This document shows positions 200 through 4,538 of a stretch of 64,000 nucleotides of DNA, in pieces (positions within the stretch are counted from its first letter, which is position 1; every line of letters starts with the position of its first letter). Source of the DNA: Solicola gregarius (lineage in GTDB: Bacteria; Actinomycetota; Actinomycetes; Propionibacteriales; Nocardioidaceae); NCBI RefSeq assembly GCF_025790165.1, contig NZ_CP094970.1:4092001-4156000 (forward strand), in the 5' to 3' direction. The position numbers and the translations under genes are program-made. The notes beneath the pieces were generated by a model that saw nothing but the letters and a program-made list of their open reading frames with translations, did no database searches and was not told where the DNA came from.

Positions 200-919
200 T
201 CATGCGTGGATCCCGCACTCGGTCTTGGCCAGCCCGGCCCAGCGCCCGCTGCGCAGGTCGGCGCCCTCCTCGACCCGTCGCGTGCAAGGCCAGCACCCGA
301 TCGACGGGTAGCCGTCGTACTGCAGCGGGTTGACCAGTACGCCGTTCTCCTGGATGTAGCGGTCGACGTCGTCGCCCGTCCAACGCGCGAGCGGCGACAC
401 CTTGACCTTCTCCTTGCCCGGATCCCAGCCGACGACCGGTGTGATCACCCGGTTGTGCGTCTCTTCGCGGCGCAGCCCTGTCGCCCACGCGTCGTACGAG
501 GCGAGTGCATCCTGCAGCGGCTTGACCTTGCGCAGGAAGCAGCAGCGGTCGGGGTCGCGGGCGAACAGGTCCTTGCCCTCGCCGGCGTCCTGCTCGGCGA
601 CGGTCTGCTCGGGCTCGACGGTGATCAGGTTGACCGGCATCGTGGCGGCGACCGCGTCGCGCGTACCGATCGTCTCGGCGAAGTGGTAGCCCGTGTCCAG
701 GAAGACGATATCGAGACCCGGCGCGACCTTCGAGGCGATGTCGATCAGGACGGCGTCGGCCATCGAGGACGTCACGCAGAACCGCTCGCCGAACGTAGCG
801 ACTGCCCACTCGACGATGACCGAAGCGGGTGCGAGCTCGAGCTCGGCGCCGGCGACCGTCGCGATGTCGCGGAGTTCCGCGGCGCTACGACGGTCGACGT
901 CGACATTGGTGATCGTCAT
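200..919 (-). CDS. cysH: Assimilatory APS/PAPS reductase
   Basis: Reduces adenylyl sulfate (or PAPS) to sulfite in cysteine biosynthesis. The 239-residue product has the adenine-nucleotide alpha-hydrolase fold and carries the paired cysteines C126-C127 (RCCFLRK) and C209/C212 (CWPC) that ligate a [4Fe-4S] cluster in the APS-using branch, plus the catalytic Cys of the C-terminal ECGIH motif. The cluster cysteines favour APS over PAPS as substrate. I chose the ATG at 919 because GGAGG lies just upstream and the ATG overlaps the stop of the preceding small gene. A longer reading frame extends upstream but has no conserved sequence. Third gene of the sulfur operon. Confidence 0.96.
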   Translation of the reverse strand: MTITNVDVDRRSAAELRDIATVAGAELELAPASVIVEWAVATFGERFCVTSSMADAVLIDIASKVAPGLDIVFLDTGYHFAETIGTRDAVAATMPVNLITVEPEQTVAEQDAGEGKDLFARDPDRCCFLRKVKPLQDALASYDAWATGLRREETHNRVITPVVGWDPGKEKVKVSPLARWTGDDVDRYIQENGVLVNPLQYDGYPSIGCWPCTRRVEEGADLRSGRWAGLAKTECGIHA

Positions 920-1089
920 GCCGATGCACCTCCCTGTGGGGTGGTAGTGGGGGAGAGGATGCCGACGAAGCGGAGTCCGAACGCGCGCTGGCACGAACGG
1001 CACTCCCACTCGCCGTGCTTCTCTCCGTGGGGGCGGAGGTCCTCGTCGCCGCAGTACGGGCAGTGGAACGGGACGGCGTGACCGCTCAT
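916..1089 (-). CDS. Small zinc-ribbon protein of the sulfur operon
   Basis: A 57-residue protein starting MSGHAVPFHCPYCG. Two CxxC knuckles (C10/C13 and C30/C33) separated by a short basic/acidic stretch form a one-domain zinc ribbon, followed by a flexible tail. Its TGA overlaps the cysH ATG, so the two are translationally coupled, and it starts 34 nt after the nirA stop. I recall small CxxC proteins between nirA and cysH in other actinobacteria, but their role is not established. It could be a metal-binding accessory factor or regulator. It is too short to stand out by ORF length alone, but codon use, coupling and the four cysteines support it as real. Confidence 0.85.
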   Translation of the reverse strand: MSGHAVPFHCPYCGDEDLRPHGEKHGEWECRSCQRAFGLRFVGILSPTTTPQGGASA

Positions 1090-1123: not shown

Positions 1124-2812
1124 TCATCGCAGCACCGCCTCGTCGGCGCGCCCGACCCACTGCGCGAACACCTCGCCGTCGTTGCGCTCTGCGAGGTACG
1201 TACGCGCGAGGCGCTCGATGTAGTCGGCGAGTGCGGCGCCGGTCACCTTGTGTGCTCGTAGCTTGCGGCCGAATCCCGCCTCGAGCCCGAGGGCGCCCCC
1301 GAGGTGGACCTGGAAGCCCTCCACCTGCGCGCCGGACTCATCGACGACGAGCTGGCCCTTGAGGCCGATGTCGGCGGTCTGGATGCGGGCGCAGGAGTTG
1401 GGGCACCCGTTGACGTTGACGCTGATGGGCGTATCCAGCTCGGGTACGCGCTGCTCGAGCTCGTCGATCAGCTCGGCCGCGCGGTCCTTGGTGTTGATGA
1501 TCGCGAGCTTGCAGAACTCGATGCCCGTGCAGGCCATCGTGTTGCGCCGCCACGCCGACGGGCGGGCGTACAACCCGAGGCCCTCGAGCGCGGTGATCAG
1601 CGGTTCGACCCGGTGCTCGTCGAGGTCGAGGATCAGCAGTTTCTGGTGCGCGGTCGTGCGTACGCGGCCGCTGCCGTGCTGCTCGACGACGTCGGCGACC
1701 TTGGCGAGCAGCGAGCCCGACACCCGACCGACGGTGAGTGCGACACCGACGTAGAAGCGGCCGTCCTGCTGCTTGTGGACGCCGACGTGGTCGCCGGGGG
1801 TCTGCGGTGCCGGTGCCTCGGGTCCGTCGGGCAGTGGCCGGCCGAGGTACTCGGTCTCCAGCACGTCACGGAACCGCTGCGTGCCCCAGTCGGCGAGTAG
1901 GAACTTCAGCCGGGCGCGCGTTCGAAGCCGGCGATAGCCGTAGTCGCGGAAGATGCCGGTGACGCCGGCCCATACCTCCGGGACATCCTCGAGCGGAACC
2001 CAGACCCCGAGCCGTTGCGCGAGCATCGGGTTCGTCGAGAGTCCGCCGCCGACCCAGAGGTCGAAGCCGGGCCCGAACTCCGGATGCTCGACGCCGACGA
2101 ACGCTACGTCGTTGATCTGGGGCACCGTGTCGTGGCTCGGATGCCCGCTGATCGCGGTCTTGAACTTGCGCGGCAGGTTGGAGAACTCCTTGCTGCCGAT
2201 GTAGCGGCGCTCGATCTCCTCGACCGCCCAGGTGCCGTCGATGATCTCGTCGGCGGCGATGCCCGCGACCGGGCTCCCCAGGATCACCCGGGGGCAGTCG
2301 CCGCACGCCTCCTGGGTGGTCAGACCGACGGCCTCGAGCTTGTTCCAGATGGTCGGGACGTCCTCGATGCGTACCCAGTGCAGCTGGATGTTCTGCCGGT
2401 CCGTCAGGTCGGCGGTGTCACGCCCGTACGTCGCGGACAGCTCGGCGATCGTGCGGAGCTGGTCGAGGTCGAGCTGCCCGCCGTCGATGCGTACGCGCAG
2501 CATGAAGTAGCTGTCCTCGAGCTGCTCGGGCTCGAGCGTCGCGGTCTTGCCGCCGTCGATGCCGGGCTTGCGCTGGGTGTAGATGCCCCACCAGCGGAAC
2601 CGGCCGCGCAGGTCGACCGGGTCGATCGACTCGAACCCGCCGTGCGCGTAGATGTTCTCGATCCGGGCGCGAACGTTCAGCGCGTCGTCGTCCTTCTTCA
2701 CCTGCTCGTTGGAGTTGAGCGGCTCGCGGTAGCCGAGGGCCCACTGTCCGCTGCCCTTCTGGGCGCGGCTTGCGCGGGTCGGGCGAACGGGGGCGTCGGT
2801 CGTCGTGGTCAT
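1124..2812 (-). CDS. Ferredoxin-dependent sulfite (or nitrite) reductase
   Basis: A 562-residue siroheme/[4Fe-4S] reductase that makes sulfide from sulfite by six-electron reduction. Cluster and siroheme ligands are visible as C428 and C434 (ACTGIEFCK) and C470 and C474 (NGCPNSC), the order expected for the family, with the two ferrodoxin-like half-domains before and between. Sequence alone hardly separates sulfite from nitrite reductases. The neighbours cysH, the sirohydrochlorin chelatase and the cysteine leader peptide decide for sulfite, as in the actinobacterial genes called nirA or sir. First large gene of the operon, 112 nt after the leader peptide stop. Confidence 0.95.
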   Translation of the reverse strand: MTTTTDAPVRPTRASRAQKGSGQWALGYREPLNSNEQVKKDDDALNVRARIENIYAHGGFESIDPVDLRGRFRWWGIYTQRKPGIDGGKTATLEPEQLEDSYFMLRVRIDGGQLDLDQLRTIAELSATYGRDTADLTDRQNIQLHWVRIEDVPTIWNKLEAVGLTTQEACGDCPRVILGSPVAGIAADEIIDGTWAVEEIERRYIGSKEFSNLPRKFKTAISGHPSHDTVPQINDVAFVGVEHPEFGPGFDLWVGGGLSTNPMLAQRLGVWVPLEDVPEVWAGVTGIFRDYGYRRLRTRARLKFLLADWGTQRFRDVLETEYLGRPLPDGPEAPAPQTPGDHVGVHKQQDGRFYVGVALTVGRVSGSLLAKVADVVEQHGSGRVRTTAHQKLLILDLDEHRVEPLITALEGLGLYARPSAWRRNTMACTGIEFCKLAIINTKDRAAELIDELEQRVPELDTPISVNVNGCPNSCARIQTADIGLKGQLVVDESGAQVEGFQVHLGGALGLEAGFGRKLRAHKVTGAALADYIERLARTYLAERNDGEVFAQWVGRADEAVLR

Positions 2813-2878
2813 GGAGCGCGTCCTTCACGGTGATGGACACGCGGTGCACGGGGCGTTACGGATTCATTCGGCGCTGAA

Positions 2879-2918
2879 CGAACTCACAGCCCGGTGACCG
2901 CATGCCCGAGGGAGTTCG
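2879..2918 (-). promoter_or_regulatory. Possible attenuator stem in the nirA leader
   Basis: CGAACTC (2879-2885) is complementary to GAGTTCG (2912-2918), forming a 7-bp stem around a GC-rich loop. It begins 7 nt after the leader-peptide stop in the transcript and ends 66 nt before the nirA start. A ribosome stalled at the Cys codon would cover sequence just upstream. The stem is weak on its own and its role is a guess. Confidence 0.3.
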
Positions 2919-2924
2919 GGCGGG

Positions 2925-3011
2925 TCAGACCGGGCGACACATGCTGCTGCGGACACGACCGAGGTCGACGTGACGCCGAGCCACCAGGTGTGTCGATTCC
3001 GCTGCGAGCAT
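2925..3011 (-). CDS. Cysteine-sensing leader peptide upstream of sulfite reductase
   Basis: A 28-codon ORF, MLAAEST... containing LVARRHVDLGRV and ending SSMCRPV and TGA. The RRHVDLxRVxSxxC pattern matches the short putative leader peptides that precede sulfur-assimilation operons in Streptomyces and other actinobacteria. GGAG precedes the ATG. The single Cys codon is four codons from the stop, so stalling for lack of Cys-tRNA would place the ribosome at the end of the ORF. The control mode (attenuation or exposure of the nirA start) is inferred. The family resemblance is from memory of these peptides, not a search. Confidence 0.8.
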   Translation of the reverse strand: MLAAESTHLVARRHVDLGRVRSSMCRPV

Positions 3012-3055
3012 GGCAAGAAGTCTCCGCGACGACCGCAGCCCGTGACAAACCCCCG

Positions 3056-3074
3056 TCTCGCTATGTGAGCGAGA
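3056..3074. promoter_or_regulatory. Operator-like palindrome upstream of the sulfur operon
   Basis: Perfect inverted repeat TCTCGCT-N5-AGCGAGA located 45 nt upstream of the leader-peptide start on the nirA side. Position and symmetry fit a repressor or activator site at the sulfur-operon promoter. No regulator can be named from the sequence. Between it and the next recognisable feature (3075-3187) I see nothing. Confidence 0.45.
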
Positions 3075-3187
3075 TGTCCGTATTCTGAGACAGCGGTCGG
3101 GTGGTATCGACGTTTGTGCAGGTCAGCGATTCGGGCGGGTGGTGGCTTGCGATGCCGATCACACCCGACGGCGGCGGGCGGGCGCCT

Positions 3188-3448
3188 TCACGCGGGTACG
3201 GACAGCCGGTCGCGCAGGAATGTGCCGAGGGGCATCGGCTCGCGACCGATCAGGGAGGCGAGGGTCGCGGCGCAGGTCAGGGCGGGGCGAAAATCGGATG
3301 CGCCGCCGAACCATGCCGCGTAGCGTTTGCCGTGTCGACACGTTCGGATTCGAGGGGAGTGAGACCAATGGCGGACCACCGACTCGAACCTGCTGTCATC
3401 TCGCTCCGCTACCGCGCCTGAGCACGTTGCTGCGTGCCGTAGCGGCAC
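3188..3448 (-). pseudogene. Possible remnant of a short-chain dehydrogenase/NmrA-like gene
   Basis: The last roughly 45 residues of this frame (from RYAAWFGGASDF to FLRDRLSVPA) read like the C-terminal end of NAD(P)-binding oxidoreductases of the NmrA/SDR type, where a LIGREP-like segment precedes the terminus. The upstream part of the frame shows no Rossmann GxxGxxG and runs into the uORF and hairpin before rsgA, so no intact gene exists. It is either a decayed 3' end or chance. The resemblance is weak and unverified. Confidence 0.3.
3368..3421 (+). CDS. Candidate 17-residue upstream ORF before rsgA
   Basis: ATG preceded by a strong GAGGGGAG at 8-nt spacing encodes MADHRLEPAVISLRYRA and stops 46 nt before rsgA. 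A TAGCGT hexamer about 45 nt upstream could be the -10 of the same transcript. The strong ribosome site argues for translation. No family is recognised and there is no cysteine, so it is not of the sulfur leader type. Confidence 0.4.
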   Translation: MADHRLEPAVISLRYRA

Positions 3449-3450
3449 GC
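3432..3450. promoter_or_regulatory. Hairpin before rsgA start
   Basis: Perfect stem GCGTGCCG-TAG-CGGCACGC between the candidate uORF stop and the rsgA start codon 18 nt downstream. It could be a mild attenuator or a structure controlling rsgA translation. No T-tract follows it. Confidence 0.4.
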
Positions 3451-3467
3451 ACAGAAAGCTCCCTCAC

Positions 3468-4538
3468 ATGCCTGATTCCGTCGATCCCGACGACCTACTC
3501 ACCCGCCTCGGCTGGGACGACCGCTGGGCCGCCATGCTCGGGCCTACCGCCCTTCGACCAGCGCGCGTCACGCGCGTCGACCGCGGGCTGTACGGCGTGC
3601 TCGGTGCCGCCGGTCCCGACCGCCACGGCCTCGGCCCCAATCTCCTCGAGGCCGCGGCACACGACCCGCTCGACGGGCCGTGCGTCGGTGACTGGGTGAC
3701 GCTGCGCGACTGGCCCGACGACCGCGTGACGATCGACGCCGTACTGCCGCGGCGCACGGTGCTCGTACGCGCCCAGGTCGGCGGCACATCGCACGAGCAG
3801 GCGCTCGCCGCCAATGTCACCACGACCGCCGTCGTCGCCGGCCTCGACCAGCAGCCGTCCATGACCAAGCTGGAGCGGCTGATCGCGTTGGCCTGGGAGA
3901 GCGGCGCGGCTCCCGTCGTACTGCTGACGAAGGCCGATCTCGCCCGCGACGCCGACGATGTGGCCGCCGACCTGATGTCGGTCGCGCCGGGCATCGAGGT
4001 GATCTGCTGCAGTGTGCTCGACGGCCGCGGCATCGAGCGCGTACGCGAGCTGGCCGCCGCCGGCACCGTGGCGCTCGTGGGCTCGTCGGGCGCGGGCAAG
4101 TCGACGCTGATCAACGAGCTGGTCGGCGCCGACGTACTCGCGACTCGCGACATCCGATCCGACGGTCGTGGCCGGCACACGTCCGTACGCCGCGAGCTCG
4201 TCCTGCTTCCGTCCGGTGGCTGCCTGGTCGACACGCCGGGGCTTCGTGGCGTCGGTCTCTCCGACACCGGTGAGGGCTTGGCCGCGACGTTCGCGGACGT
4301 GGAAGCGCTGATCGCCCAGTGCCGGTTCACCGACTGCGCGCACGAGACCGAGCCCGACTGCGCCGTGCGCGCCGCGCTCGACGACGGGCGACTCGACGTA
4401 CGCCGCTACGAGAGCTGGCAGAAGCTGCAGCGCGAGGTGGCCTGGATGGCCCGCCGCAAGGACGCTCGCCTGCGCGCCGACGAGCTCAAGCGCTGGAAGC
4501 GTCGTACGAAGGACCAGCGCTCGGCCCGACACCGCTGA
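3468..4538 (+). CDS. rsgA: Ribosome small-subunit maturation GTPase A
   Basis: Circularly permuted GTPase that checks late 30S subunit assembly. The 356-residue protein shows an N-terminal OB-fold region, the G4 motif TKAD near residue 154 placed before the G1 P-loop GSSGAGKST near 205 and the G3 DTPG near 250 (the permuted order), then a zinc knuckle built from the C, C, H and C of CRFTDCAHETEPDC, and a basic tail. Length is normal. The gene is alone on this strand and converges on the amidase with 9 nt between the stops. Confidence 0.97.
   Translation: MPDSVDPDDLLTRLGWDDRWAAMLGPTALRPARVTRVDRGLYGVLGAAGPDRHGLGPNLLEAAAHDPLDGPCVGDWVTLRDWPDDRVTIDAVLPRRTVLVRAQVGGTSHEQALAANVTTTAVVAGLDQQPSMTKLERLIALAWESGAAPVVLLTKADLARDADDVAADLMSVAPGIEVICCSVLDGRGIERVRELAAAGTVALVGSSGAGKSTLINELVGADVLATRDIRSDGRGRHTSVRRELVLLPSGGCLVDTPGLRGVGLSDTGEGLAATFADVEALIAQCRFTDCAHETEPDCAVRAALDDGRLDVRRYESWQKLQREVAWMARRKDARLRADELKRWKRRTKDQRSARHR

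Follow-up and report, generated by a model that had tools for sequence, protein, structure and literature searches.

The nirA-cysH locus and its upstream ORF

The locus described here lies in a 64,000-nt stretch of the Solicola gregarius genome (the window, i.e. the whole stretch of DNA that was analysed), where the minus strand carries, in order of transcription, a very short ORF, a gene for a siroheme sulfite/nitrite reductase of the nirA/sirA type and a cysH-type gene (Table 1). The nirA product reached no NCBIfam cut-off. The sequence-only reading had described the short ORF as having 28 codons, with a Cys codon four triplets from the stop, at 112 nt before nirA, and translation of the window confirmed each of these particulars for the minus strand: the distance from its stop to the nirA ATG (2812) is 112 nt and its single Cys codon is a TGT in the 4th position before the stop. 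The plus strand translates differently over the same positions.

Table 1. Features of the leader-nirA-cysH region and the tRNA-Cys gene, in window coordinates
Feature	Position	Strand	Remarks
cysH-type PAPS/APS reductase	200..1009	-	gene after nirA
nirA/sirA-type siroheme sulfite/nitrite reductase	1124..2812	-	first gene past the leader; NIR_SIR and NIR_SIR_ferr matches
predicted hairpin GCGUGUCC...GGACGCGC	2816..2842	-	contains the nirA Shine-Dalgarno AAGGA (2821-2825)
predicted strong hairpin	2889..2935	-	begins directly 3' of the UGU codon, with the uORF stop lying inside it; putative role
leader ORF	2925..3011	-	28 codons, MLAAESTHLVARRHVDLGRVRSSMCRPV and stop; kept in 143/147 nirA upstream regions
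putative sensor codon UGU (Cys)	2937..2939	-	UGU in 141/143 nirA leaders and 211/215 distinct leaders overall
14-residue conserved core RRHVDLGRVRSSMC	2937..2978	-	first Arg 13 residues before Cys
-10 element GAGACT	3019..3024	-	7 nt from ATG
GGAG of the sequence-only reading	3022..3025	-	overlaps the -10; not conserved
-35-like TTGTCA	3043..3048	-	18 nt before the -10
inverted repeat TCTCGCTCACATAGCGAGA	3056..3074	-	just 5' of the -35; candidate operator
tRNA-Cys, anticodon GCA, loop CTGCAAA	6943..7014	-	only tRNA-Cys found in the genome

Conservation of the leader peptide

NirA is present in 82 of 98 related genomes and is 93% identical in the closest relative, a sister species; among the matches listed (the best 80 of 587, which were also added to the nirA set as named relatives) the nearest named ones, at 78%, are those of Aeromicrobium massiliense and Mumia quercus. 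The nirA start was placed in 160 loci, which upon removal of duplicates and of L169 (no upstream sequence) left 147 upstream regions; L194, in which the start was not located, and fragments at contig ends (e.g. G091, G041 and G010) lie outside the counts. A search for the peptide upstream of nirA in relatives, as the sequence-only reading had proposed, recovered the motif at a threshold of 12 bits in 143 of these 147 non-duplicate regions, a count of related sequences rather than of independent events; the lack of conservation that the reading had named as its refutation is thus not what was seen. The regions without the motif are L102, which offers just 116 nt of upstream sequence, L192 and L195; a further one had been merged as a duplicate core. 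The S. gregarius locus scores 60.0 bits with a matrix nearly identical to the control matrix, as against a best score of 5.1 bits among 888 controls (5 dinucleotide shuffles and the reverse strand for each of 148 upstream regions), and the earlier judgement that the arrangement is too ordered for chance is thus borne out.

The ratio of nonsynonymous to synonymous changes is 0.10-0.45 over the 15 conserved codons versus about 1 in the 45 nt past the stop, with pN/pS values of 0.22 in the Streptomyces-type group, 0.10 in the Kribbella-type group, 0.40 in the others and 0.45 overall. Judged from these ratios, selection acts on the leader peptide at the protein level. That the ORF arose by chance and has no link to sulfur regulation appears a negligible prospect: it is indeed short and stays under the NCBIfam cut-offs (see below), but this reading is contradicted by the conservation in 143 of 147 regions, the control scores, the selection and the promoter spacing. 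As a separate observation, a stretch resembling GGGCGCGCGGTCGCCGG recurs past the uORF stop in many relatives; it was noted by eye in the window, as GGGCATGCGGTCACCGG, and in several other actinobacteria.

Relationship to known cysteine leaders

Sequence profile analysis of the leader peptide recovered three NCBIfam families, with matches that span nearly the whole profiles: NF042936 (the Ms4527A family) at 31.8 bits, the cut-off of 45 not being reached; NF042934 (cis_reg_atten, 'putative leader peptide') at 26.9 bits, or 25.4 in the genome search, which misses the cut-off of 27 while covering profile positions 1-19 of 19; and NF042933 (the Ms5788A family) at 20.8 bits, again below its cut-off of 45. 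Pfam gave no match to the leader peptide. At E <= 0.05, 80 of the 98 relatives have an NF042934 match, which exceeds the cut-off in 29 of them, whereas all 14 control genomes are without one; at E <= 5e-4 a match is present in 241 of the 393 genomes searched from the class, 219 of which exceed the cut-off.

For comparison across these families the core is numbered such that the first Arg of R-x-[H/A]-V-D-L-x-R is position 1 and the Cys is position 14. The Ms4527A leader of mycobacteria shares with the present one the core R-R-H-V-D-[LF]-x-R...C, the place before nirA and the UGU codon at position 14. The NF042936 search finds this nirA leader in 14 probable mycobacterial genomes, a genus assignment that we infer, with examples such as RRHVDFKRVCSCCCLP containing 2-6 Cys residues as against the one of the present leader. 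In 14 of the 15 NF042936 loci the leader adjoins nirA (57-64% identity), and 13 of 14 have TGT at position 14; the nirA leader of L326, RRHVDLARVCSCLGPIV, is without Cys at 14 and has Cys at positions 10 (TGC) and 12 (TGT). Many members of NF042934 are single-Cys, as is the present leader. The Ms5788A family, found before rhodanese genes, has the same layout and includes a member in the S. gregarius genome itself, RRAVDHCRVRSALCRMH, with UGU at 14; it differs from the present leader in its A-type core RRAVDLC and in being often poly-Cys.

The sequence-only reading had taken the lone Cys codon as what sets this leader apart from the poly-Cys leaders of mycobacteria. The difference in number stands, as the nirA leaders of the probable mycobacterial genomes have 2-6 Cys. 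Over the span that starts six residues ahead of the core and runs to the stop, 106 of the 143 nirA leaders have one Cys and 37 have two, and one is also the commonest number in the wider set described below (130 of 215 distinct leaders), at the same position and with the same UGU codon as in the poly-Cys leaders. On these sequence comparisons the lone Cys is the fixed position of the leader family and not the sign of a separate system. The sensing threshold may possibly differ between single-Cys and poly-Cys leaders.

Canestrari et al. 2020 reportedly described polycysteine leaderless short ORFs, with several or consecutive Cys codons, that respond to cysteine, and in which stalled ribosomes are said to unmask the ribosome site of the next gene. 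The present leader differs from ORFs of this type in having one Cys codon rather than several. The promoter spacing would fit a leaderless start in 139 of 140 loci.

For the cys operons of mycobacteria, leaders containing Cys runs were predicted in 2005 (PMC1262725), and mycobacterial Cys leaders were seen by ribosome profiling in 2015 (PMC4633059). Later papers, following Canestrari et al. 2020, cite the mycobacterial leaders as experimentally shown cysteine-responsive attenuators (PMC9031893, PMC9094748, PMC13236596) that regulate downstream genes through attenuation (PMC9031893, PMC13236596). Also reminiscent of the present leader is uORFC-8-2, a proposed attenuator before cysS in Rhodobacterales with Cys codons near peptide position 14-15, which, as described in PMC8632094, differs in having tandem Cys codons, mostly UGC, an intrinsic terminator and a host from another phylum. 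The classical his, trp and leu attenuators are alike in employing a slow regulatory codon under amino-acid shortage for which the synonymous choice counts (PMC1183508). Unlike them, the present leader has one regulatory codon, a predicted leaderless start and a conserved core, and no intrinsic terminator was found (see below for scope). Taken together, it is a single-Cys form of the known actinobacterial kind of cysteine leader and most likely works as a leaderless cysteine attenuator.

A nearly invariant UGU codon at position 14

At position 14 the codon is TGT in 141 of the 143 nirA leaders. A wider set of leaders was chosen by protein profile and not by codon, comprising 102 loci (the 30 best and 40 for family spread from the class search, 30 from the relatives and 2 from the S. 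gregarius genome) that yielded 100 distinct leaders; L199 and L217 are exact duplicates, and L038 and L259 carry variants (RRAVDLCHTATAMC and RRPVDLCRVATCLC) outside the search pattern. These 100, poly-Cys leaders included, divide into 65 of the H-type (TGT in 63) and 35 of the A-type (TGT in all 35). Among the pooled 215 distinct leaders TGT is found in 211 and TGC in four (L075, L084, L247 and L265), and with the leaders of the NF042936 search added (n=229) the counts are 224 and 4, with no Cys at 14 in one (L326). By the family labels of their genomes the leader loci span at least 24 GTDB families.

UGU makes up only 4-10% of the Cys codons of coding genes at the nirA loci: 113 nirA genes contain 607 TGC and 23 TGT (23/630), and 294 long ORFs contain 1237 TGC and 144 TGT (144/1381). 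The other Cys codons of the same leader peptides are TGC in 118 cases and TGT in 56 (Fisher p 3e-50, with related sequences treated as independent). By position, TGC is used in 44 of 46 Cys codons at 7 and in 11 of 13 at 13. In the multi-Cys leaders TGT accounts for 16/33 at position 12, 21/28 at 15 and 11/22 at 16, and UGU is therefore not confined to position 14; it is nearly invariant only there, and the Cys codons around it tend to UGU too. By information content no other core codon is as biased as codon 14 (3.1 bits); Ser11 and Leu6 come next. Separately, Ser11 is encoded by AGC in 122 of 135 nirA leaders and in 45 of 67 other leaders, against a background of 19%.

The spacing of the codon from the conserved segment is similarly fixed. 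A search of the collected loci for R[RLIP][HA][VIL]D[LFY]xR lying fewer than 30 codons from a stop, a Cys not being part of the pattern, found Cys as residue 14 in 246 of 248 motif occurrences, repeats included. The strongly conserved R, D and R sit 13, 9 and 6 places before the Cys, the invariance of R1, D5 and C14 being partly built in by the selection of leaders. The synonymous bias bears on whether the product of the ORF might instead act in trans as a peptide, without being a cis regulator. Protein-level conservation would suit such a peptide, but an invariant synonymous choice is something that a peptide cannot carry, and given also the constant location of the ORF at the head of sulfur-linked operons and a motif that ends at the Cys near the stop, we regard a trans-acting peptide as very improbable. 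The UGU rule was not found in the open-licence literature on cysteine leaders, and it may already be in print; as far as that literature shows, what may be new here is that a near-invariant UGU follows a conserved nascent-chain motif at a constant interval.

With regard to decoding, 45 tRNA genes were found in the S. gregarius genome, and the one tRNA-Cys among them, situated in this window, has the anticodon GCA, so that UGU is read by a G34 (G-U) wobble. In a study of the his leader, NNC codons are read faster than NNU codons, with Cys among the cited cases, and the gap is clearest where one G34 tRNA reads both (PMC4046918); the choice of regulatory codon matters in attenuators by both theory and experiment (PMC1183508). 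These papers back slow decoding of UGU in general rather than a pause at the present leader, which is a prediction.

Promoter and predicted leaderless start

When the loci are aligned at the uORF start, 139 of 140 show an A...T pair in the -10 position, compared with 24.0 expected from shuffles; 132 of the 140 have a T at -36 and 135 a C at -1. Because this spacing fits in 139 of the 140 loci (24 expected), the uORF transcript is predicted to be leaderless, with its start at or beside the A of the ATG. The sequence-only reading had assigned the ribosome site of the uORF to a GGAG. This tetranucleotide is present, but it covers part of the conserved -10 element and is missing in the sister species, where GAGACT is kept; moreover, SD-like 4-mers precede the uORF in only 10 of 140 loci versus 24 expected, and the nirA start in 138 of 143. 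The assignment was hence rejected. In the stretch preceding the -35, inverted repeats of score >= 6 occur in 63 of 140 relatives versus 11 expected, and the repeat at the S. gregarius locus is probably the operator for some regulator.

Hairpins and the output step

The 156-nt stretch holding the hairpin that follows the UGU codon has a folding z of -1.63. At the window locus the nirA Shine-Dalgarno is more paired than in all 40 shuffles, and in the sister species its rank is 0.15. The corresponding mean ranks in four groups of loci are 0.38, 0.62, 0.75 and 0.42; local Shine-Dalgarno sequestration, which did not exceed that of shuffles in three of the groups and was weak at best in the fourth, was rejected as a general rule. 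A ribosome-masking model run on 136 loci gave little change in Shine-Dalgarno pairing, with no consistent direction (mean difference -0.020), the unpaired values being 0.333 for free RNA, 0.376 with a ribosome at the Cys codon and 0.396 with one at the stop. No intrinsic terminator (a hairpin with a U run) was found in 2700-3470, and Rfam gave no credible match in 2500-3500, only a chance miRNA at 17.6 bits against a cut-off of 61.

These observations are relevant to a different explanation of the UGU codon, namely that it is kept for RNA pairing, with the anti-Shine-Dalgarno stem or another stem opened by the ribosome, rather than for decoding speed. In the Kribbella-type loci the Cys-codon sequence UGUCCUU is able to form a duplex with the AAGGACA of the nirA Shine-Dalgarno (mean duplex rank 0.21 among own shuffles), and in the Streptomyces group a computed change to UGC weakens the duplex between UGU and the Shine-Dalgarno in 92% of 52 loci; outside Streptomyces, however, the change strengthens pairing as often as it weakens it, and the rank of the cognate duplex among its own shuffles is 0.49 in Streptomyces and 0.43 in the others. 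Three of four groups gave consensus folds better than those of column shuffles (z -4.9, -3.3 and -5.2), in a test that took only the first 30 short Streptomyces-type regions and had a stray L042 in the Kribbella group, but column shuffling is a weak control and the fourth group has no consensus fold. As the bases following UGU vary and UGU is kept ahead of unrelated genes, a role in pairing is unlikely to be what preserves the codon. Shine-Dalgarno pairing as the explanation of UGU was accordingly set aside, being suggestive in the Kribbella-type loci only.

The step at which nirA output is set may be translational control, Rho or a mixture of the two. A paused ribosome might block Rho-dependent termination between the leader and nirA instead of acting on nirA translation, as Seliverstov et al. 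suggested for mycobacterial cys leaders (PMC1262725); the lack of an intrinsic terminator in the region searched and of a general Shine-Dalgarno switch speaks for this. On the other side are the Shine-Dalgarno hairpin common to the window and the sister species and the citation of mycobacterial cysteine genes as cases of translation attenuation (PMC13236596), and on balance we take Rho to be a possible output, at somewhat under even chances.

Proposed mechanism

The features described above are best accounted for, with good though not full confidence, by a cis-acting, cysteine-responsive leaderless attenuator ahead of nirA-cysH that would work through ribosome pausing at UGU. With a transcript that begins at the AUG, as the promoter spacing suggests, a 70S ribosome would start on the leader at once, read RRHVDLGRVRSSM and meet one UGU, whose distance from the RRHVDL segment is fixed. 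As the wobble codon of the single tRNA-Cys(GCA) this UGU would be slow, and slower still if Cys-tRNA is short, while the conserved Arg and Asp residues, which precede the UGU codon by 6-13 residues, would then be in the exit tunnel and would probably lengthen the pause. By the mycobacterial precedent the paused ribosome might prevent the leader RNA beyond it from taking up a repressive fold or being reached by Rho, such that nirA-cysH is made, and with ample cysteine it would finish and depart and expression would fall.

This attenuator is favored because the leader is found in 143 of 147 regions, under selection at the protein level, before an operon of a sulfite reductase-type gene and cysH; because it resembles NF042936, NF042934 and NF042933 and the same motif precedes nirA in the probable mycobacterial genomes and the rhodanese gene of S. 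gregarius itself; and because of the UGU bias at position 14, the leaderless promoter spacing and the one GCA tRNA-Cys. Points against it are the lack of an intrinsic terminator in the region searched, the null result of the masking model, the weak local Shine-Dalgarno sequestration across groups, the scores under the NCBIfam cut-offs, the UGC in four leaders, the missing Cys of L326 and the frequent UGU at positions 12, 15 and 16 of multi-Cys leaders. The sequence-only reading had proposed a cysteine leader controlling the sulfur operon: the kind of leader, the sulfur operon and the conservation are upheld by comparison, and the regulation itself is what the sequences predict.

A bolder form of the proposal, which we hold only tentatively and consider rather doubtful, is that throughout the actinobacterial sulfur-leader family the sensor proper is one invariant UGU, placed at a set interval after an RxHVDLxR nascent-chain ruler, with the nascent chain priming the ribosome such that one slow wobble codon is enough and the poly-Cys leaders being lineage elaborations; the readout might then include sulfur-dependent modification of A37 in tRNA-Cys in addition to charging. 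The modification is a speculation drawn from the AAA beside the tRNA-Cys anticodon and the presence of a miaB gene. The experimentally known cysteine leaders are mycobacterial poly-Cys ORFs, and if one UGU at a fixed distance were the sensor, at least 24 of the GTDB families sampled would share this rule. Such a sensor would also account for the sufficiency of a single codon, a design that attenuation theory deems weak (PMC1183508), and annotators would gain a codon-level criterion for leaders scoring under the NCBIfam cut-offs. Since UGU to UGC leaves the peptide unchanged, the codon rule is open to a synonymous test.

Other leader-linked genes

The S. gregarius genome has a second leader of this kind, MPYTTLLTKRRAVDHCRVRSALCRMH (C1:1502850-1502906, minus strand), before a gene for a rhodanese/mercaptopyruvate sulfurtransferase; its Cys at position 7 is encoded by TGC and that at position 14 by TGT. 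Elsewhere such leaders precede genes for an SsuA-type binding protein, cysteine dioxygenase, an SsuE-like FMN reductase, an SfnB/DszC-like oxidoreductase, an amino-acid ABC permease (best match cystine), a luciferase-like monooxygenase, an SDF symporter and a DUF4395 protein, in a list that leaves out one of ten scanned proteins (that of locus L025, read from the wrong strand) and where the SsuE, SfnB/DszC and permease names rest on matches under the NCBIfam cut-offs. This range of genes fits a common sulfur/cysteine signal. In L265 and L266 the leaders occur as pairs on opposite strands, within about 2.4 kb and 1.2 kb of one another, respectively.
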